Shown here: piece by piece, positions 36,139 to 50,463 of the stretch
How the letters are laid out: every line of letters starts with the position of its first letter
How positions within the stretch are numbered: the stretch's first letter is position 1
NCBI RefSeq assembly: GCF_016809835.1
Contig: NZ_JAFBIL020000005.1
Span: 186,001 to 250,000, forward strand
Reading direction: 5' to 3'
DNA from: Massilia soli
GTDB taxonomy: Bacteria > Pseudomonadota > Gammaproteobacteria > Burkholderiales > Burkholderiaceae_D
DNA: 64,000 nt
The notes under the pieces: model-generated
What the model was told of the DNA's origin: nothing
The model's database searches: none
What the model saw: only the letters and a program-made list of their open reading frames with translations
Translations under genes and position numbers: made by a program

Positions 36139-36438
36139 GTTCCCGCTTTCGCGCACTGCTGTCCGGAATAATCTTGTTGACAGTGCCATTGCATCAATCG
36201 GGTTCGGGGCGCTCACAGAAATCGCGGCATTGAGACTTGGAATGCAAGACTTAACGTCGCCCCTGCGAAGGCAGGGGTCCATACTCGGCACGATTCGTAT
36301 GGGCCCCTGCCTGCGCAGGGGCGACGTTGGCCTGCATTGCCGATTTCCTTGTGGCTGTAGCTTCTAAAACGACGCTTGGCTGCCGAGCGATTCGTGTCAA
36401 GCAGAATATTCCGGACAGCAGTGCGCTTTCGAGGGAAC
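36139..36438. mobile_element. About 300-bp inverted-repeat (MITE-like) element with REPIN-like core
   Basis: The ends are inverted repeats. The 20 bases at 36151-36170 (GCGCACTGCTGTCCGGAATA) recur exactly in reverse complement at 36407-36426, and weaker pairing extends out to 36139/36438 and in to 36182/36395. The inner flanks also show partial inverted likeness. The centre is the palindrome at 36253-36328. No transposase is encoded. It starts at the base after the GMC stop codon. Calling it mobile is inference from structure; no target duplication was identified. Confidence 0.55.
36253..36328. repeat. REPIN-like palindrome
   Basis: Two inverted copies of a short palindromic unit, AACGTCGCCCCTGCGAAGGC (continuing to AGGGGTCCATAC) and its near reverse complement (ending GCAGGGGCGACGTT), are separated by a 12-bp spacer. 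The whole block can fold as one long cruciform. It forms the core of the 36139-36438 element. Confidence 0.8.
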
Positions 36439-39246: not shown

Positions 39247-39747
39247 ATGCAAAAACTTATCAAGATGCTCATTGTTGGAAGTGCGGCCGCGCTCGCTGGC
39301 TGCGTTGGGATGACGCGCACGGCGCCGGTTCCGGGCGACACGGTGGCCGATACACAGGCGAAATTCGGCGCGCCGACGGCGGTCTATGCTGCTCCGTCGG
39401 GACAGGTAATGGAATACGCGACCGGTCCGATGGGCCAGTACACCTGGATGGCCAAGGTCGGCCCCGACGGACGGCTGGTGTCGTTCGAACAGGTGCTCAC
39501 CGGCGAGAAGTTCGCCACGCTCAAGATCGGCAAGGCGCGCAAGGAAGACGTGCTGCGCACGATCGGCAGGCCGGCCGAGACCTCGTTCCTGTCGCTGCCG
39601 CAGCTGGAAGTCTGGTCCTATCGCTACAAGGAAGCGGGCGTGTGGAACTCGATGATGCACGTTCACTTCGACCGCAGCGGCGTGCTGTCGATGATGCAGA
39701 ACGGGCCCGACCCGATGTACGAAGAGCGGCGCTTCTTCCTTGATTAA
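39247..39747 (+). CDS. Small outer-membrane-type lipoprotein, intact copy
   Basis: A 166-residue predicted lipoprotein. The signal peptide MQKLIKMLIVGSAAALAGC ends in a lipobox LAGC. Two similar segments follow that resemble the small BamE-type fold (LTGEKFATLKIGKARKEDVLRTIGRPAET, then FLSLPQLEVWSYRYKEAGVW), but the family assignment is only a guess. The 3' 255 bp are repeated almost exactly at 44854-45108, where the 5' part is missing. This is the left boundary gene of the tandem duplication. Confidence 0.85.
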   Translation: MQKLIKMLIVGSAAALAGCVGMTRTAPVPGDTVADTQAKFGAPTAVYAAPSGQVMEYATGPMGQYTWMAKVGPDGRLVSFEQVLTGEKFATLKIGKARKEDVLRTIGRPAETSFLSLPQLEVWSYRYKEAGVWNSMMHVHFDRSGVLSMMQNGPDPMYEERRFFLD

Positions 39748-39767
39748 AGGTCGAGCAGCGCCGCGCC

Positions 39768-42700
39768 TTAGCCGTATGGCTGGTAAAGAAAACCGTTACC
39801 GATCACGCTGGCGAGCGCGCCCTGGTTCTCCGCCGATTCGCTGAAACCCGTCAGCACTTGGTCACGCGTCGCGCCATTGGCGAGCGAGTTCACCCAGAAA
39901 TCGATTCCGCCCTGCTCCCCTTTGCGGTGCAGGATGTTGTCGTAGAGTAGATCGACGAACTGCGCGTTCGTTGGCGAGGCGCCGTACAGCGTGCGGAACT
40001 CGTCGCTGGCGACGAAGTTGCTGGCCACCGTGGTGAGGGCCATGCCGCGATCCATCTGCGCAATCCAATAGCCGAGCCCGCCATGGTCGGGAGCGCGGTC
40101 GAACGCCGCCTGGTACAGGCGGTAGGCCTGCCCGGCGTTCCCGCTGATGTCGAGGGCAATGGCGCCATCGGCAAACAGCAGGCGTTCAATGCCGGTCAAA
40201 GCATCGCCTGTGGCCCCATTCCGATAGACGACCAGGGCATCGCCGCCGTTGCGCACCACGCGGTAATTTGCCATGCTCTCGGCATACGGGGCGGTATCGA
40301 TGCCAGCGCCGCCATCAATGCGGGTGCCATTGCCAAAGCCCGTCATCAAGTCATTGCCTGTCGTGGCTGTACTGGCGATCGCCGTCGTGGTGAACGTAAA
40401 TGATTTCACGCCAGCATACGGATTTCCCGCGTAGTCCATGACGCTTCCAACGGGCAGTTCCAGCGTATAGGTAGTGCCCGCGCGCAGCGTAGCATCGGCC
40501 GCCATGATGAGCTTGTTACCAGTTTCGATAGGAGCCTGAAGCGCGATTGCGCCGCCCGATCCCGTGCGTAGCAAGATCGGGCCACCACCAACTTTAACGC
40601 CTTCACTGAAGGTCAGCACGAAATCGCCAGTGAGGCTGACGCCGGTTGCGCCATTGGAAATCCACTGCGCCGCCAGGGTCGGCGCGACGGTATCGTCGAC
40701 TACTTCAGTCGCCTTGACGGTGTACGTTCCGGCATTTTTATCATACCCATGGGCTAACAGGAAATAGTCGCCCGTTTCCCGTGCCGTAAACTGGATGTAA
40801 GGCGAGCCGCGATTGGCTTCCGTTGCGATCGTATCGAGCCGCATCGCGTCGGGCCCAAGCAATCTGAAGATGGAGCCGCTCTGTGTATCCAGAGTACCGC
40901 CGCCACCGAGCACGCCGATCAGTTCGAAGGCATATGTCTTGCCGGCTGTTAGCGACACCTTGAACGCGTCTTCATCAAAGATATGTTCGAGCCTGCCTTT
41001 GGTTTGGCCGTTGATGGCGACAACACCCGCTGTCGACCCGGTAGAGCCGAAGTCGTCGCGCCCGACGGAATAGGCATTGATCGCATACGATCCCACACCG
41101 CCGCCCGCTGCGCCATCCATGGTCACCAGATAGTCGCCGGACGAGGTCGCGTCCACCACAACATATTGATAGCCCAAGCTGAAATCGCCGGTTCCCTGTC
41201 CAACACGGGACACGCCGCTGCCATCGACTACCTCGATATCCGTATAGCCGAACGAGTCGGCGACCGGCCGGGTCTTGACCTCGATAACGTATTGGTTGCC
41301 TGCAGTGACCGCCAGCTTGAAGCTGTCGCGGTCGCCCATCACCTCCAGGGCGCCAGCCTGGGACACCCCCTCGGTGAGGCGGCCAGCAGTTGCACTGGTG
41401 TGCCCGAAGTCGTCGTTTGGAATTTGCTTGGCGGCGATCGTGTAGGCCCCACTGCCGCTCGGCGCCGATAATTCAAAAAAGTATTTCCCGCTTGTCGCAG
41501 CGGCGAACGTCAGCTCCAGCCCATCCAGGCTCCACGACGGACTGCTTGCCAAAGGGTTGCCGTTGGAATCGAGGATTTTTGCGATAACCGACGCGTCGAA
41601 GCTGGTCGCATCGGCGCTCGCGGTAGTGAACGAGTAACGCTGGCCAGCGGTCAAGGTAACGCCAAACCAGTCGCGGTCACCGCCGCCCGACGTCAGCTTG
41701 CCGGAGACGGAACTGCCGATGACCAGTTTTCCGGCCGTCGCCGCGGTCACGCCGAAATCATCGGTCTCAAGTGTGGCTTTGAACGTGAATGCGCCGCCCG
41801 TCGGTCCTGCCGATGCCGACACATAATAGGTGCCGCTACTTTGCGGTGTGAAGGTGTGCGAAAGCAGCATGCCTCCTTCTGAGTACACGCCTCCGGCAAC
41901 AGTCGAAATGGCCATGCCCACGCCGGTGCCCGCCCTGCCGGATGCCATTTCGAACACGTAGCTTTTACCGGCCTGCAGGTCCAGTTTCAAGACGTCGATA
42001 TCGCCAGCGCCGTCGAGCACGCCGCTGACGGTGGCGCCGAGCGCGACGGCACTAGCGTTGGCGTAATTGTCTCCAAAGTCATCGCCCGCGACCGGACGCA
42101 CCCATTTCAGTGTGTAAGGGCTGCGCGTCACGCCATTGAATAATTGTTCGCCATCGACGACGAAGTAGTAGTCGCCTGCGGTGGCCGGCGTGAACGTCAA
42201 TGTCGCCCTCCCCGCCGCTGGTGACGATTGCGACAGCGGCACCCATTCCCCGGCCGCGTTTCTCAGAGAAATACTGAGAGCAGAAATATCCGAGAGATGG
42301 GCAGCAAGTTCGAACGTGTACGCAACACCCGCGGCAAGGGTCGTCTTGATGTAATCCGTGTCGGCGCGGAACTGGATCGCGCCTGTGATATCGGCGCCGG
42401 CACGCAGGACTGCGGTGGTGCTCATGTCCCCTGCATAGTCATCGGTGGCCAGCGTGCGCGAGACAATCGAATACGTCCCGGGCTGGTGCGAACCGACAGC
42501 AACATAATAATCGCCGGTTACCGATGGATTGAAGGGGTAGATCGGATACTCGACACCGTTGCTGTCGAATATCTGCATGCCCCCGGGTGATACGAAGGGC
42601 GCTACTGTCTCGCTGCCGAACGAATAATGCTTGCCGGCTTCTGCCCGGAACCGGAACCAGTCGATATCGCCGGCGAACTCGAAAGTGCCACTGGCTTTTC

Positions 42701-43139
42701 CTGATGCGACCAACACCCCTGCTGTCGTGGCATTGCTGGCGAAATCATCAGCCACTGCCGGCTTGATGGCAGCGGCCACGTTGTAGCTGCCGTATTGGTG
42801 TGCGTCAGGGTTCCAGCTTCGCGTCTCAAGGAAGTAGCTACCAGACACCTTCGCCGTGTACTCGAAGGTGGGGCCGAACTGCCCTGAGCCAGACTGGTCC
42901 CAGAGCAGTGCGCCACCGGGACCGCGCAGTGCGAGTTCAGTAGAACTGAACGACGTGAAGCCACCCAATCCGGTAGGATGCGATGGCATCGAAAAGACGT
43001 ACGAGGTACCTGCAACAAGGTCGACTTTCACCCAGTCCGAATCATACTCACGGTCAATACGCCCAGTCAGCGTGCCGCCAACCGTCAGTACGCCAGTGGT
43101 TGAGGAATCCCCTGGGAAGTCGTCGGCTGCGTGCGTCAT
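39768..43139 (-). CDS. PPC-repeat / Ig-like / DUF4214 large secreted-type protein
   Basis: A 1,123-residue protein without a signal peptide. Seven repeats of the pre-peptidase C-terminal (PPC) type cover about residues 1-800, each opening with (A/D)DD(F/Y) and containing a D-x-D-(W/S/A)-F/V-x-V-x-L-x-AG-x2-Y-x-F core. A SwmB/Big_5-like domain follows at about 815-925 (LTFSEGVKVGGGPILLRTG), then a short RTX-like stretch (GNDLMTGFGNGTRIDGGAG, about 935-950). A DUF4214 domain occupies 1003-1115 (AAFDRAPDHGGLGYWIAQMD and ILHRKGEQGGIDFWVNSLA). The layout suggests type I secretion, but no transporter genes are nearby. It lies in copy A of the duplication only. Confidence 0.85.
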   Translation of the reverse strand: MTHAADDFPGDSSTTGVLTVGGTLTGRIDREYDSDWVKVDLVAGTSYVFSMPSHPTGLGGFTSFSSTELALRGPGGALLWDQSGSGQFGPTFEYTAKVSGSYFLETRSWNPDAHQYGSYNVAAAIKPAVADDFASNATTAGVLVASGKASGTFEFAGDIDWFRFRAEAGKHYSFGSETVAPFVSPGGMQIFDSNGVEYPIYPFNPSVTGDYYVAVGSHQPGTYSIVSRTLATDDYAGDMSTTAVLRAGADITGAIQFRADTDYIKTTLAAGVAYTFELAAHLSDISALSISLRNAAGEWVPLSQSSPAAGRATLTFTPATAGDYYFVVDGEQLFNGVTRSPYTLKWVRPVAGDDFGDNYANASAVALGATVSGVLDGAGDIDVLKLDLQAGKSYVFEMASGRAGTGVGMAISTVAGGVYSEGGMLLSHTFTPQSSGTYYVSASAGPTGGAFTFKATLETDDFGVTAATAGKLVIGSSVSGKLTSGGGDRDWFGVTLTAGQRYSFTTASADATSFDASVIAKILDSNGNPLASSPSWSLDGLELTFAAATSGKYFFELSAPSGSGAYTIAAKQIPNDDFGHTSATAGRLTEGVSQAGALEVMGDRDSFKLAVTAGNQYVIEVKTRPVADSFGYTDIEVVDGSGVSRVGQGTGDFSLGYQYVVVDATSSGDYLVTMDGAAGGGVGSYAINAYSVGRDDFGSTGSTAGVVAINGQTKGRLEHIFDEDAFKVSLTAGKTYAFELIGVLGGGGTLDTQSGSIFRLLGPDAMRLDTIATEANRGSPYIQFTARETGDYFLLAHGYDKNAGTYTVKATEVVDDTVAPTLAAQWISNGATGVSLTGDFVLTFSEGVKVGGGPILLRTGSGGAIALQAPIETGNKLIMAADATLRAGTTYTLELPVGSVMDYAGNPYAGVKSFTFTTTAIASTATTGNDLMTGFGNGTRIDGGAGIDTAPYAESMANYRVVRNGGDALVVYRNGATGDALTGIERLLFADGAIALDISGNAGQAYRLYQAAFDRAPDHGGLGYWIAQMDRGMALTTVASNFVASDEFRTLYGASPTNAQFVDLLYDNILHRKGEQGGIDFWVNSLANGATRDQVLTGFSESAENQGALASVIGNGFLYQPYG

Positions 43140-43365
43140 AGAAATGATTAACCGTTAAATTGAATTGGAAGTAGCTTACCAGAAACACACGCTCCAAGTT
43201 GCAAGTTTATTAAGTTACTTGCCAATATGCATAACGCATCAGCGACTTTCATACACGTTCAGATGAGGGATCTTCGGTGCGACGGAACAAGCGTCTATGC
43301 ATTACAGATTGCTGTCTATGTAGGGGGGTATTGTCGGTCGCAAGACCACCACACGCGGAGTAAAA

Positions 43366-43842
43366 ATGCTGCAGCAACAAGAGTCCGAGATCGAATACGC
43401 TGGGTTTTGGTCTCGGGTTGGGGCAACGCTGATCGACACCATCATTCTCATGATCGTCTCGATACCGCTGCTGCTGGCCTTTTACGGTACCAGCTACTGG
43501 GAGAACACATCGTTCGTCGCTGGCCCGGCCGGCTTCCTTATTTCCTATGTTCTGCCGGCAGTCGCCGTCATCCTGCTGTGGATCAAGTTTTCGGCAACCC
43601 AGCGAAAGATGGCGATTGGCGCAACCGTGGTCGATGCCCGGACCGGCGGCAAACCAGGGACCTCCCAGTTTCTCATCCGCTACCTCGGCTATTTCGTCTC
43701 CACCATCCCACTGTTCCTCGGATTGATCTGGGTTGGCATCGATCCGCGCAAGCAGGGCTGGCACGACAAGATGGCCGGCACGGTCGTGGTCAAGCGGAAG
43801 GCTGGCGGGGCCGTGCCAGTCCGCTTCGACCAAGCAGGCTAA
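43366..43842 (+). CDS. RDD family membrane protein, copy A
   Basis: A 158-residue protein with the RDD domain: three hydrophobic segments (residues about 20-44, 51-73 and 109-127). The signature EYAGFWSRVGATLIDTIILMI carries the Arg and Asp, and KMAIGATVVDARTGGKP is conserved. GGAG precedes the ATG by 7 bp. It is a diverged paralogue of the protein at 45228 (roughly three quarters identical by eye) and arose with the tandem duplication. The function of the family is unclear; ion or small-molecule transport has been proposed for some members. Confidence 0.9.
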   Translation: MLQQQESEIEYAGFWSRVGATLIDTIILMIVSIPLLLAFYGTSYWENTSFVAGPAGFLISYVLPAVAVILLWIKFSATQRKMAIGATVVDARTGGKPGTSQFLIRYLGYFVSTIPLFLGLIWVGIDPRKQGWHDKMAGTVVVKRKAGGAVPVRFDQAG

Positions 43843-43850
43843 ACTGCCGC

Positions 43851-43920
43851 CTACGCCATGGAATGCAGGCCGATCATATTGCCTTCGGTATCAGTGACCA
43901 GGGCAATGTGGCCGTACTCG
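43851..43920 (-). pseudogene. Remnant of the VOC gene 3' end
   Basis: The last 23 codons of the VOC gene at 45707-46078 recur here (EYGHIALVTDTEGNMIGLHSM, then stop). Differences are nearly all third-position changes; the final Glu has become Ala. The rest of the gene is gone; the likeness stops at 43920, just before an unrelated membrane-protein gene on the other strand. Confidence 0.85.
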
Positions 43921-43937
43921 TTAGCACAAGAGGTCCG

Positions 43938-44333
43938 ATGACCAAACAGACTGGCTCCCATGAGGGAAAAATACCCCGATTAAATACTTTTATGGGGCTC
44001 ACGATCGCTTGCCTCTCAGGACTTGCGTTGGTATTTGGCATCGCAGCGCCCGGCTTAGGGTGGGCGATTTCCGTCTCTATTTTATTGTTAGCAACCGCGC
44101 TTGCAAAAATAATCCGAGCGCGCTGGCTAACAGCTTCCATTGCGATCTCGATCGTTCATTTGTTGGCTTTCGGCCCTTTAGCAAATTTCGAGCTTCAACC
44201 AGGCGTATCTGCGACATTCGCCTTCTGGATAATTATCCTACCGCTGACGGTAGCCGCTGTTGCCGTTTGGGCCGTCATGGAAAAACGACCGAAAAAAAGA
44301 CCTACTGACAAGGCGAAGATCGGCCATTCGTAA
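43938..44333 (+). CDS. Small integral membrane protein of unknown function
   Basis: A 131-residue protein with about four hydrophobic segments (residues about 19-40, 42-58, 63-80 and 88-110) and a basic C-terminus (MEKRPKKRPTDKAKIGHS). AGAGG precedes the ATG by about 3 bp. I do not recognise a family. The coding sequence is visibly richer in A/T codons than its neighbours (TTA, AAA, ATT), suggesting separate origin. It occupies the place where copy B has the VOC 5' part and the TonB-like gene. Confidence 0.6.
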   Translation: MTKQTGSHEGKIPRLNTFMGLTIACLSGLALVFGIAAPGLGWAISVSILLLATALAKIIRARWLTASIAISIVHLLAFGPLANFELQPGVSATFAFWIIILPLTVAAVAVWAVMEKRPKKRPTDKAKIGHS

Positions 44334-44407
44334 TCCGTCCGCCTGCGGTCTTGGCCAACGAGGTTTCGGGCGAATGTGCATGTTGCCAAAAGCCAGGCCG
44401 GGTACGT

Positions 44408-44854
44408 TTATAGCTGCGGATTGACCCGCTCGATTTTTGAATGCAGCTTGTTCAGCCCTGACAGATACGCCTTGGCTGACGCGACGACGATATCCGGGTC
44501 GGACCCCACACCATCGACGATCCTGCCCGACCGCGACAGGCGCATGGTCACTTCGCCTTGCGATTCGGTGCCATTGCTGATCGCATTAATCGAGAACAGC
44601 ACCAGCTCGGCGCCGCTGGCGGCCTGCTTTTCAATCGCGTTGACTGTCGCGTCGGCCGGGCCGTCGCCCTGCCCTTCGCAGGTGTGCTCCTTGCCGTCCA
44701 TGGTAAACACCACTTTGGCCGTCGGTGTCTTGCCCGTTTCGGACTGCTGCGCCAGCGACACGAAGCGGTAATGCTCGCCTTCGCTCGCGTGCTCTTCATC
44801 CGATACCAGCGCCATGATGTCCTCATCGAAGATCTCCGACTTGCGGTCGGCCAG
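44408..44854 (-). pseudogene. leuA: leuA 3' fragment (copy A)
   Basis: A 447-bp fragment matching the last 148 codons of intact leuA (46931-47377) without indels, that is, the C-terminal regulatory domain. It has no start of its own in the leuA frame other than an internal Met (44815), and its 5' side is fused to the lipoprotein fragment on the opposite strand. The stop is conserved as TAA against TAG. By eye there are 14 differences in the 93 bp next to the stop, all synonymous, but only 6 in the other 354 bp, two of which change residues (N to D, V to A). Confidence 0.9.
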
Positions 44855-45108
44855 TGCTCACCGGCGAGAAGTTCACCACGCTCAAGATCGGCAAGGCAGC
44901 CAAGGAAGACGTGCTGCGCACCATCGGCAGGTCCGCGGAGACCTCGTTCCTGTCGCTGCCACAGCTGGAAGTCTGGTCGTACCGGTACAAGGAAGCGGGC
45001 GTGTGGAACTCGATGATGCACGTTCACTTCGACCGCAGCGGCGTGCTGTCGATGATGCAGAACGGGCCCGACCCGATGTACGAGGAAAAGCGTTTCTTCC
45101 GCGACTAG
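44854..45108 (+). pseudogene. Lipoprotein 3' fragment (copy B)
   Basis: Matches the last 85 codons of the lipoprotein gene at 39247-39747 in frame to its stop. The signal peptide and first 82 codons are missing, so no lipoprotein can be made. A GTG at the junction could in principle start translation of 84 residues in the cytoplasm. Most substitutions are silent; changed residues include A to T, R to A, P to S and L to R. Confidence 0.88.
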
Positions 45109-45227
45109 CGGCCGGTCCAACCCGGCAGTGGACGCCGCAGGAAAACGCGTATGCCGCGCGCATTGCGCGATGGTTGATCGGGTGTTATCGTCAGCAACAT
45201 CTCATCGTCAACGCGGAACGGGCACCA

Positions 45228-45701
45228 ATGGAACAACAATTGTCGGACGTCGAATACGCGGGCTTTTGGTCGCGCGTCGGCGCCACGATCATCGACACCA
45301 TCATTTTGATGATCGTCACCGTGCCGTTGTTATGGACCATTTACGGAGCCAGCTATTGGGAAAGTGACGCGCTGGTCGCCGGCCCCGCCGACTTCGTGGT
45401 GTCTTACCTGCTCCCGGCAGTTGCAGTGATCCTGCTTTGGATCAGGCTTTCAGCAACGCCCGGCAAAATCGCGATCGGCGCGACCATTGTCGACGCCAGG
45501 ACGGGCGGCAAACCAACCGCGGGGCAGTTTGTCATCCGTTACCTCGGCTATTTCGTGTCTACCATTCCGCTTTGCCTTGGACTGATCTGGGTAGGCTTCG
45601 ATTCGCGCAAGCAGGGCTGGCATGACAAGATGGCCGGCACCGTCGTCATTAAACGCAGGGGCGGCGGCGCCGAACCCGTCAGTTTCGACCAGCCAGGCTA
45701 A
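45228..45701 (+). CDS. RDD family membrane protein, copy B
   Basis: A 157-residue paralogue of the protein at 43366 with the same RDD layout: three hydrophobic segments, EYAGFWSRVGATIIDTIILMI near the N-terminus, and KIAIGATIVDARTGGKP. The upstream 45 bp also resemble those of copy A (GGGT-x-TT-x-TCG-x3-GCAA). The first Met at 45228 was chosen by alignment with copy A. Followed by the convergent VOC gene 5 bp after its stop. Confidence 0.9.
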   Translation: MEQQLSDVEYAGFWSRVGATIIDTIILMIVTVPLLWTIYGASYWESDALVAGPADFVVSYLLPAVAVILLWIRLSATPGKIAIGATIVDARTGGKPTAGQFVIRYLGYFVSTIPLCLGLIWVGFDSRKQGWHDKMAGTVVIKRRGGGAEPVSFDQPG

Positions 45702-45706
45702 CGCGG

Positions 45707-46078
45707 TTATTCCATCGAATGCAGGCCGATCATATTGCCCTCGGTATCGGTGACCAGGGCGATGTGACCATACTCACCGATGGAGAATTTCTCTTTTTCG
45801 ACCTTGCCGCCGAAAGTGGCCGCCTTCGCCGCCTCAACCGCGCAATCATCGCATACGAAGTAGACCAGAACACTGTTTCCGCCTGACGGAATACCCGGCA
45901 TTTTCACCAGCGCGCCGGGTGAGCCGTAGCGTTCCGAGTCCATCGGAAATGCCAGCATCTCGATTCCCGGACTCGGCAGCGGAGCCAGCGGTGTGCCGAA
46001 TACGCCTTCGTAAAAAGCCTTCGCACGCTCCATGTCCTGCACGTAGATTTCAAACCATCCAACGGCGTTGCTGTTCAT
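45707..46078 (-). CDS. VOC/glyoxalase family protein, intact copy
   Basis: A 123-residue single-module VOC protein. It starts MNSNAVGWFEIYVQDMERAK, has a central GALVKMPGIPSGGNSVLVYF, and ends GHIALVTDTEGNMIGLHSME. His and Glu residues at equivalent module positions could bind a metal. AAAGGA precedes the ATG at 46078 by 7 bp; the upstream extension of the frame is not family-like. The reaction is unknown. A 70-bp remnant of its duplicate lies at 43851. Confidence 0.9.
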   Translation of the reverse strand: MNSNAVGWFEIYVQDMERAKAFYEGVFGTPLAPLPSPGIEMLAFPMDSERYGSPGALVKMPGIPSGGNSVLVYFVCDDCAVEAAKAATFGGKVEKEKFSIGEYGHIALVTDTEGNMIGLHSME

Positions 46079-46183
46079 GGCAATCCTTTCGAAGTTCGGT
46101 GTGGTTGAGGGTAGCGGTATGCTGCCACGGAAAGATTGGCAAGACAATCAGCCGAGGCTGGTTCTTGTTTATGATTCTGCTGA

Positions 46184-46879
46184 ATGATGCTGACTTCGCC
46201 CCTCCTCCGAAATGACCGCCGCGTGGGCGCGCTTGCGCTGACGCTCGGCATGCATCTGGTTATCGTGTACGGCTGGCATCTCAATAGCCGCATTCGTGAC
46301 CATGAGGACAGCGACGCCGGCAGCCGGATTCAATGGCTGCTGGTTCCGAAGGCTGAACCCGTCGCGGCGCCAAAGCCGAAGCCGCAGGTATCAAAGCCTG
46401 TTGCCGCAGCGCCCCGGCCGCAGGCGTCGGCAGCGCCGGTGGCGCCATCGGATGAGGCTCCATCTTTGCCAGCCGATGTTGCCTTGCAAGACGCGCCGAC
46501 ACCTGCTCCGGTAATAGGTCTGCTTGACCGCGCGCGCAGCGCCGTCGGGGAAATCGATCGCGGTTTGCAAGAAGCGAACACGAGCAAGCTGATTCGCGCG
46601 AAACCGGTCTCCACCCAGATGCGCCTGGAACGCGCGATGCAAAAGGCCCACGACATGGCGCCGAACAAATGGTACGAGGCGCCCAAGGTGACTGAGATCA
46701 TTGACCCGGGCGGGTACGGCCGGCGCCGCTATCGGGTAGTCGGGGCGAACGGTACCTATTGCATCACGGTCGAGTCGAACCACGCGCCCGATGGCATCGA
46801 TACCATGCAGCATGGAATAAAGCCGAAGCTGACCAATTGCGACACCGACGAACAGGCCGCGACGAAGCAGGATTGGTAG
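46184..46879 (+). CDS. Single-pass protein with TonB-like N-terminus, unknown function
   Basis: A 231-residue protein. The membrane segment VGALALTLGMHLVIVYGWHL (residues about 14-33) is followed by a Pro/Ala/Lys-rich spacer (residues about 55-110) like those of TonB or TolA. A C-terminal domain (about 115-231) contains two cysteines (YCITVES and LTNCDTDE) that could form a disulfide. The C-terminal domain is not recognisably TonB. No ExbB/ExbD genes are nearby. It could be a small envelope-spanning adaptor; this is inference. Present only in copy B of the duplication. Confidence 0.7.
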   Translation: MMLTSPLLRNDRRVGALALTLGMHLVIVYGWHLNSRIRDHEDSDAGSRIQWLLVPKAEPVAAPKPKPQVSKPVAAAPRPQASAAPVAPSDEAPSLPADVALQDAPTPAPVIGLLDRARSAVGEIDRGLQEANTSKLIRAKPVSTQMRLERAMQKAHDMAPNKWYEAPKVTEIIDPGGYGRRRYRVVGANGTYCITVESNHAPDGIDTMQHGIKPKLTNCDTDEQAATKQDW

Positions 46880-46901
46880 CGCCGCATGCCCGACTCGGCA
46901 T

Positions 46902-46927
46902 GGGCTCCCGCATTCGCGGGAGCGACG
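46902..46927. repeat. Single REP-like palindrome
   Basis: GCTCCCGCATTCGCGGGAGC forms a near-perfect hairpin ending in GACG. It sits between the convergent ends of the TonB-like gene and leuA and may also limit read-through. It shares the GCGGGA(A/G)CGAC end with the elements at 25549 and 50406. Confidence 0.75.
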
Positions 46928-46930
46928 GCT

Positions 46931-48475
46931 CTACAGCTGCGGATTGACCCGCTCGATCTTCGAGTGGAGTTTGTTCAGCCCTGACAGATAGGCTTTCGCC
47001 GAGGCCACGACGATGTCCGGGTCGGACCCCACACCATTGACGATCCTGCCCGAACGCGACAGGCGCATGGTCACTTCGCCTTGCGATTCGGTGCCATTGC
47101 TGATCGCATTAATCGAGAACAGCACCAGCTCGGCGCCGCTGGCGGCCTGCTTTTCAATCGCGTTGACTGTCGCGTCGACCGGGCCGTCGCCCTGCCCTTC
47201 GCAGGTGTGCTCCTTGCCGTCCATGGTAAACACCACTTTGGCCGTCGGTGTCTTGCCCGTTTCGGACTGCTGCGCAAGCGACACGAAGCGGTAATGCTCG
47301 CCTTCGCTCGCGTGTTCTTCATCCGATACCAGCGCCATGATGTCCTCGTCGAAGATCTCCGACTTGCGGTCGGCCAGCTCCTTGAAGCGCGCGAATGCGG
47401 CGTTCACTTCTTCCTCGGTCTTGAGGTCGATGCCCAGCTCCTGCAGGCGCTGCTTGAAGGCGTTGCGGCCGGAGAGCTTGCCCAGCACGATCTTGGTGGC
47501 GGCCCAGCCCACGTCTTCCGCGCGCATGATCTCGTAGGTCTCGCGCGACTTGAGCATGCCGTCCTGGTGGATGCCCGAGGCGTGTGCAAAGGCGTTGGCG
47601 CCGACCACCGCCTTGTTCGGCTGTACTGCGAAGCCGGTGATCTGCGAGACCATCTTGGATGCGGCCACGATCTGCGTGGTATCGATGCCCAATTCGAGCT
47701 TGAAGATGTCCGGACGCGTGCGCACCGCCATCACCACTTCTTCCAGCGCCGTGTTCCCTGCGCGTTCGCCCAGGCCGTTGATGGTGCATTCGATCTGGCG
47801 CGCGCCGCCGATGGTGACGCCGGCCAGCGAATTGGCGACCGCGAGGCCAAGGTCGTTGTGGCAGTGGACCGACCATACGGCCTCGTCGGAATTGGGAATG
47901 CGCTCGCGCAGGCGGCGGATGGTTTCGCCGAACACTTCCGGCACCGCGTAGCCGACGGTGTCGGGGAAGTTGATGGTGGTGGCGCCTTCGGCGATCACCG
48001 CTTCCAGCACGCGGCACAGGAAGTCTTCTTCCGAGCGGCTGCCGTCTTCCGGGCTGAACTCGATGTCGTCGGTGTACTGGCGCGCGTAGCGGATTGCCTG
48101 CTTGGCCTGTTCCAGTACCTGCTCCGGCTGCATGCGCAGCTTGATCTGCATGTGCAGCGGCGAGGTGGCGATAAAGGTGTGAATACGCTTGCGCGGCGCC
48201 GGCATCAACGCTTCGGCGGCGCGTGCGATGTCGCGCTCATTGGCGCGCGACAGCGAGCAAATGGTGGAGTCCTTGATGACGCTGGCGATCGCGCGGATCG
48301 CTTCGAAGTCGCCCGGCGAGGCAGCGGCGAAGCCGGCTTCAATCACGTCGACCCGCAGGCGCTCAAGCTGGCGCGCGATGCGGACTTTTTCGTCGCGGGT
48401 CATCGAAGCGCCCGGCGATTGCTCGCCGTCGCGCAGGGTCGTATCAAAAATGATGAGGCGGTTCGAGTTGGTCAT
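46931..48475 (-). CDS. leuA: 2-isopropylmalate synthase
   Basis: A 514-residue enzyme joining acetyl-CoA and 2-oxoisovalerate in leucine synthesis. The catalytic TIM barrel opens with [20 protein letters not shown] (Arg and Asp of the metal/catalytic site), and the metal-binding HxH lies in [31 protein letters not shown] is also intact. The C-terminal 130 residues form the leucine-sensing domain. Length is normal. It follows pssA by 61 bp. Its last 447 bp are duplicated at 44408-44854. Confidence 0.97.
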
Positions 48476-50405: not shown

Positions 50406-50463
50406 GGGTTTCCGCCTGCGCCGGAACGACGGCAAATCGTCGTTCCCGCGCAGGCGGGAACCC
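50406..50463. repeat. REPIN-like palindrome
   Basis: GGGTTTCCGCCTGCGCCGGA (continuing to ACGAC) and its imperfect reverse complement, TCGTTCCCGCGCAGGCGGGA (continuing to ACCC), are separated by about 7 bp. It lies 13 bp past the ilvC stop codon. Compare 36253 and 25549. Confidence 0.8.

Follow-up and report, generated by a model that had tools for sequence, protein, structure and literature searches.

Two Probably Diverged Alleles of a Variable Slot Lie in Tandem Between a Lipoprotein Gene and leuA in Massilia soli

Introduction

A chromosomal segment that stands twice in tandem raises the question of whether one sequence was copied and then drifted, or whether two versions of a locus came to lie side by side. 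This question is posed by a locus of Massilia soli within a stretch of 64,000 nucleotides, here called the window (positions 186,001 to 250,000 of contig NZ_JAFBIL020000005.1, RefSeq assembly GCF_016809835.1). The locus is a slot between an intact lipoprotein-like gene and an intact leuA gene. It holds a left copy (A) and a right copy (B), which meet at an inner junction where a leuA fragment is fused to a lipoprotein fragment. It is quite likely, judging from how the copies differ, that the genome carries two diverged slot alleles in tandem. This estimate is the sum of two routes, one step or two, and the chances are about even that a single step formed the tandem, copy B being the newcomer.

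The features of the locus are, from left to right (window positions):

39247..39747, + strand: intact lipoprotein-like gene, 166 aa, left border of the slot; the part from 39493 is repeated in copy B; no Pfam match, the name being that of the first-pass annotation
39768..43139, - strand: gene of 1123 aa with PPC, Big_5 and DUF4214 domains, copy A only
43366..43842, + strand: RDD1, RDD-family membrane protein of copy A (Pfam RDD)
43856..43919, - strand: 3' remnant (64 bp) of a VOC gene, copy A; differs from copy B at 6 third codon positions and nowhere else
43938..44333, + strand: open reading frame (ORF) of 131 aa, without a family in the Pfam search, copy A only
44408..44854, - strand: leuA 3' fragment with the LeuA allosteric domain, copy A; divergent over its last 86 bp, otherwise near-identical to the full gene
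44854..44854, no strand: inner junction of leuA and lipoprotein sequence, with one shared base; absent from 16 of 16 congeners
44854..45108, + strand: lipoprotein 3' fragment, copy B; differences partly at third positions, with a 98-bp stretch free of them
45228..45701, + strand: RDD2, copy B (Pfam)
45707..46147, - strand: intact VOC/glyoxalase-family gene, copy B (Pfam)
46184..46879, + strand: gene of 231 aa, copy B, without a Pfam match, which we presume from its look to be TonB-like; at synonymous sites it diverges in a way that the flanking genes do not
46931..48475, - strand: intact leuA, 514 aa, right border of the slot, with a probable homologous crossover at about 47015-47178

Repeat Architecture and the Inner Junction

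The first-pass annotation had described a tandem duplication by illegitimate end joining, in which the same blocks occur twice around a one-base junction and both outer genes remain intact. The self-comparison that it called for confirms the arrangement of the blocks, the junction and the intact outer genes. The blocks lipoprotein 3' part, RDD, VOC 3' end and leuA 3' part are present twice in identical order and orientation, and self-BLAST of the window returns them as three direct repeats: lipoprotein (39493-39739 versus 44854-45100, 247 bp, 93.1%, gap-free), RDD with the VOC end (43375-43919 versus 45234-45775, 548 bp, 77%) and leuA (44409-44854 versus 46932-47377, 446 bp, 95.7%, gap-free). 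The leuA and lipoprotein matches overlap at the inner junction by the single base 44854. The outer lipoprotein and leuA genes are both open. Matching blocks, order and orientation with a single novel junction are what a plain duplication would leave.

Within the genome, a 700-bp junction query matches three places and the RDD1 block two, every one of them inside the window. These results bear on the chance that the assembly, or a mixture of strains, chained the alleles of two strains together. The genome is a draft of 39 contigs and the junction is known from the assembly alone, but such an artefact is highly improbable: the junction lies in the interior of a 497-kb contig, the listed contamination is 0.01, the junction query finds no further copy elsewhere in the genome, and the artefact would have to rest on a read that is chimeric exactly where one base is shared.

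The two copies differ in gene content. The 1123-aa gene (39768-43139) and the 131-aa ORF are present in copy A and missing from copy B. The whole VOC gene and the 231-aa TonB-like gene are confined to copy B; copy A has no TonB-like gene and keeps just 64 bp of VOC. These differences had been ascribed to later gain and loss of genes in each copy; they fit two different slot alleles better.

Two-Phase Divergence of the leuA Copies

The leuA block of 447 bp is divided into two parts of very different divergence. The 361 bp on the junction side contain six differences (1.7%; 98.3% identical), whereas the last 86 bp contain 14 (16%; 83.7% identical; Fisher p = 5e-7 for 14/86 versus 6/361). The breakpoint falls at position 362 of 447, with a score that 3 of 5,000 permutations reached when all sites were shuffled, and 0 of 5,000 when third positions were. 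A plain tandem duplication implies one age of divergence for the whole block. Here synonymous divergence (dS) is 0.048 over the 120 codons beside the junction and 1.14 over the last 28 codons, and the end/core ratio is 9.8, whereas 52 distinct leuA sequences, compared in 1,325 pairs, give no value above 1.85. A duplication diverging by a uniform clock was rejected, since the divergence is two-phase within one block. Of the first-pass reading, the tandem order and the single illegitimate-type junction are supported, while the idea of one sequence that was copied and then drifted is not.

All 14 differences in the leuA end occupy third codon positions, one of them within the stop codon, and none alters the protein. 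Their most likely origin is in a time when the two versions still functioned as genes in separate lineages, because they are all third-position changes although the junction itself had removed the start of the fragment. Among the six core differences, comparison with Massilia polaris and Massilia agrisoli assigns three to the fragment, two of them protein-altering, which is as expected if the fragment has recently begun to decay. We read the leuA stretch beside the junction as having one recent origin in both copies. The fragment still contains an open frame of 135 aa (44411-44815, - strand) that spans the LeuA allosteric domain.

An ordinary tandem duplication could be retained if both copies had drifted, gained and lost genes, and if gene conversion had homogenised leuA beside the junction. 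The structure and the junction would fit this explanation, and conversion between copies is plausible. It is nevertheless improbable, as an old, truncated leuA would hardly gather 14 of 14 changes at third positions, gap-free and with the protein unaltered, and as the duplication occurs in none of 16 congeners despite the age that it would require.

Divergence of the Lipoprotein, RDD and VOC Copies

The remaining blocks are consistent with an origin of the copies in separate lineages. For the lipoprotein part, dS between the copies is 0.285; the outer gene compared with M. agrisoli gives 0.35, and with M. polaris 0.36. RDD1 and RDD2 differ with a dS of 1.02. By these values, the divergence of the lipoprotein part and of RDD is of between-species level. 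In the 64-bp VOC piece, six of six differences are at third positions. Because the copies differ largely as the sequences of separate species do, the native version was probably not simply copied but had foreign DNA stacked beside it.

The lipoprotein copies differ at 21 of 255 bp, with 14 of the differences at third positions. Some decay of the fragment is likely, because the other seven lie elsewhere; in an ordinary duplication, too, part of the divergence may be decay. On this side the copies begin to differ 21 bases away from the junction, which is what a donor piece beginning there would give. A stretch of 98 bp contains no difference at all (5 of 10,000 permutations). Conversion between duplicated copies may account for it, whereas under a stacking of two alleles it needs a conversion tract or a patchy import.

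The Slot in Related Genomes

The undoubled order that the first-pass annotation wished to see checked in relatives is the one found there. The comparison is between species, with one genome per species. In 12 of 12 relatives' regions read, the genes are arranged singly as pnp-rpsO-lipoprotein-[slot]-leuA-pssA-ilvC, with the lipoprotein and leuA genes convergent. The joined leuA-lipoprotein junction is found in 0 of the 16 congeners examined; the leuA part is matched in all 16 and a separate lipoprotein part in 14. The nearest relatives are M. polaris (G008, L067) and M. agrisoli (G003, L068).

Between these borders the slot varies widely. Both borders could be placed in 44 of 82 loci (the window included; two of the 44 are repeat records of the same species), and across these measurable loci the slot is 6-11,347 bp long. 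Its ORFs vary among the nine relatives examined. The locus is thus a highly variable slot between convergent, conserved lipoprotein and leuA genes, with the conserved flanks and variable cargo of a hotspot flanked by core genes. Such a hotspot would also show, within a species, more recombination than usual in the core genes beside it.

None of RDD, VOC, the 131-aa ORF and the 1123-aa gene was matched (at least a quarter of the query, E 1e-6) in 73 loci found with the lipoprotein query, some of which end before leuA. Protein searches for RDD2, the 131-aa ORF and VOC covered 294 family genomes that sample a larger group evenly. RDD has matches in 51 and VOC in 21 of the 294 (the M. soli genome included), with relatives in other genera. 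The 131-aa ORF has four distant matches (27-30% identity) in the 293 other family genomes. In M. cavernae (L069, 3997-4080), a remnant of 28 codons of the TonB-like gene lies directly behind the lipoprotein gene, far from leuA.

A Possible Route to the Tandem

The reading in which a single event stacked two alleles and brought in copy B can be laid out as follows. DNA of a related Massilia would have entered the cell as a piece that began within the donor's lipoprotein gene, carried RDD2, VOC and the TonB-like gene, and ended within the last part of the donor's leuA. The donor leuA end would have recombined homologously with the resident leuA, with the crossover at about 47015-47178. The broken lipoprotein end of the donor would then have been joined without homology to a broken leuA on a sister chromosome copy. 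The product would be the native slot A, a truncated leuA, the junction, a truncated donor lipoprotein gene, the donor slot B and a leuA that is chimeric yet intact. The idea that a donor circle integrated through one crossover was rejected: it predicts divergence on both sides of the leuA crossover, yet 361 bp are near-identical.

A possible means of end joining is present. In a search of 21 genomes, Ku was found in M. soli and in 12 of 12 congeners, and LigD_N is present in M. soli about 3 kb from Ku. The ComEC and DprA families are also present; this says little about competence, because most control genomes have them (10 and 11 of 14, respectively).

Copy B is the likelier newcomer, as far as distances to the two nearest relatives can tell. 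The flanking genes place M. soli, M. polaris and M. agrisoli at about equal distances: the third-position excess of M. soli over the distance between M. polaris and M. agrisoli has confidence intervals that include 0 for pnp, the leuA core, pssA and ilvC, and also for a SIMPL-family gene (+0.044, -0.009 to 0.093). The copy B TonB-like gene has an excess of 0.111 (0.046-0.179), its third-position distance to both species being greater than the one between the two. Identity of the full gene's leuA end to M. polaris and M. agrisoli is 83.3% and 82.2%, compared with 85.6% and 85.6% for the end of the fragment. The full-gene end is closer than the fragment to several other congeners.

Several observations weigh against this reading. 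RDD (E 1e-15) and VOC (E 1e-30) have a match in 0 of 16 congeners, and no donor genome was found there. The TonB-like gene is present over at least 100 aa in 8 of 10 congeners read, and it is copy A, the supposed native slot, that is without it. The excess of this gene is synonymous only, its nonsynonymous divergence being even among the three species (0.204, 0.184 and 0.185). The direction test on the leuA end shows the same trend, with copy B as the outsider, without significance on 29 codons; on the lipoprotein parts copy B is not an outsider, again without significance. The fragment's leuA end is also near some distant congeners (L040, 87.8%; L137, 86.7%). The identical 98-bp lipoprotein stretch belongs here as well. 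Finally, in laboratory cases of such illegitimate ends, the short homologies are longer than the one base at this junction.

Some of these points favour a history in two steps. A native tandem duplication by end joining would have created the junction and a native copy B, and ordinary homologous recombination with a related strain would later have put other sequence in place of copy A, over a tract that ran from the lipoprotein gene to inside the last part of the leuA fragment. This history accounts for the same two-phase leuA divergence and for a TonB-like gene kept in copy B, as in most congeners read. Turnover of a slot through recombination in flanking core genes is, moreover, a route described in the portion of PMC5635113 available to us. 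It is a possible history that we hold to be rather unlikely: two events are required, and the outer lipoprotein gene is no outsider, whereas the copy B TonB-like gene is one at synonymous sites.

Possible Recurrence and Its Meaning

A broader proposal, which we offer tentatively and with some doubt, is that the slot repeatedly stacks whole alleles. Imports would be homologous at one end and joined by Ku and LigD at the other, so that Massilia gains new cargo and keeps the old, and scars here and in M. rubra would be the footprints. In M. rubra (L070, 12060-12131), a lipoprotein 3' remnant of 69 bp, about 87% identical and in the same orientation, lies 1.55 kb inside the slot and ends at the stop codon. 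It is possibly another import scar. Control pieces taken from gene starts matched twice, marginally, over 21 and 26 bp (L038, L075), and further marginal matches to the leuA end occur in L078 (36 bp) and L137 (21 bp).

If stacking is the correct explanation, the locus would preserve a legible record of one import, locating its illegitimate end to the base and its homologous end to within about 160 bases. It would indicate that a bacterium need not swap the allele at a variable locus but can take on a second one beside it. Tandem duplicate blocks may then be stacked alleles of different lineages, and RDD1 and RDD2 would be misdated if they were treated as paralogues born together.

Repeats of other kinds occur at the same place or close to it. 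In Janthinobacterium fluminis (L081, 10511-11026), the leuA 3' end (97 bp) recurs in tandem units of about 172 bp, which form two extra leuA 3' ends; these short tandem units were not counted as import scars and probably reflect a different, local event. Two tandem lipoprotein paralogues stand at this position in L086, L088, L089, L102-L111, L113-L115, L132 and L139 (other Massilia/Telluria and one Herbaspirillum metagenome-assembled genome). In the window itself, self-BLAST returns imperfect palindromic elements at 36241-36338 (about 100 bp) and 50406-50463 (about 58 bp).

Comparison with Known Systems

Literature searches returned no paper on a Massilia leuA duplication, on this locus as a hotspot or on natural competence in Massilia, and nothing closer than PMC3784515, PMC5361080 and PMC5635113.

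Homology-facilitated illegitimate recombination is a process in which incoming DNA joins the chromosome by homology at one end and without it at the other, as described in the available parts of PMC5361080 and PMC3240628. The abrupt switch of identity in leuA would correspond to the homologous end, although a two-step history predicts the same switch, and the other end, with its one shared base, has no extended homology. The process further requires RecA and the uptake of DNA. A short, G+C-rich microhomology is usual at the illegitimate end, without being strictly defining. The single base found here is not such a microhomology. Both alleles also appear to be kept in tandem with remnants of both border genes, an arrangement deduced from sequence and not observed in action. 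The locus is not filed as a proven case, because no donor was found and one base is shared.

In Streptococcus pneumoniae, transformation induces merodiploids when imported DNA bridges sister chromatids and produces a tandem duplication (PMC3784515, from the text accessible). The likeness lies in a tandem duplication formed through imported DNA. According to the same accessible text, the pneumococcal events need repeats shared by donor and host (IS861) and span about 100-900 kb; the M. soli locus has no repeat at its junction and extends over a few kb.

The orphan immunity arrays of the Vibrio cholerae type VI secretion system offer a second parallel. Successive imports at a fixed place shift older gene ends downstream, and half-homologous insertion has been proposed, as set out in the available part of PMC5361080. 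The stacking of imports at one fixed place would be common to both systems. Unlike these arrays, as presented there, the M. soli slot has no recognised effector or immunity genes and lies between convergent conserved genes.

Hotspots of horizontal transfer without mobile elements carry variable cargo between core genes and exchange it through recombination in the flanks (PMC5635113, available portion). The Massilia slot has the same conserved core flanks and variable cargo. The hotspots covered in that portion were studied within species, whereas the Massilia slot is seen between species only. By analogy, the locus appears to work like a combination of pneumococcal-type merodiploids, module stacking and flank-recombination hotspots, and its mechanism would belong to a class that is already known.

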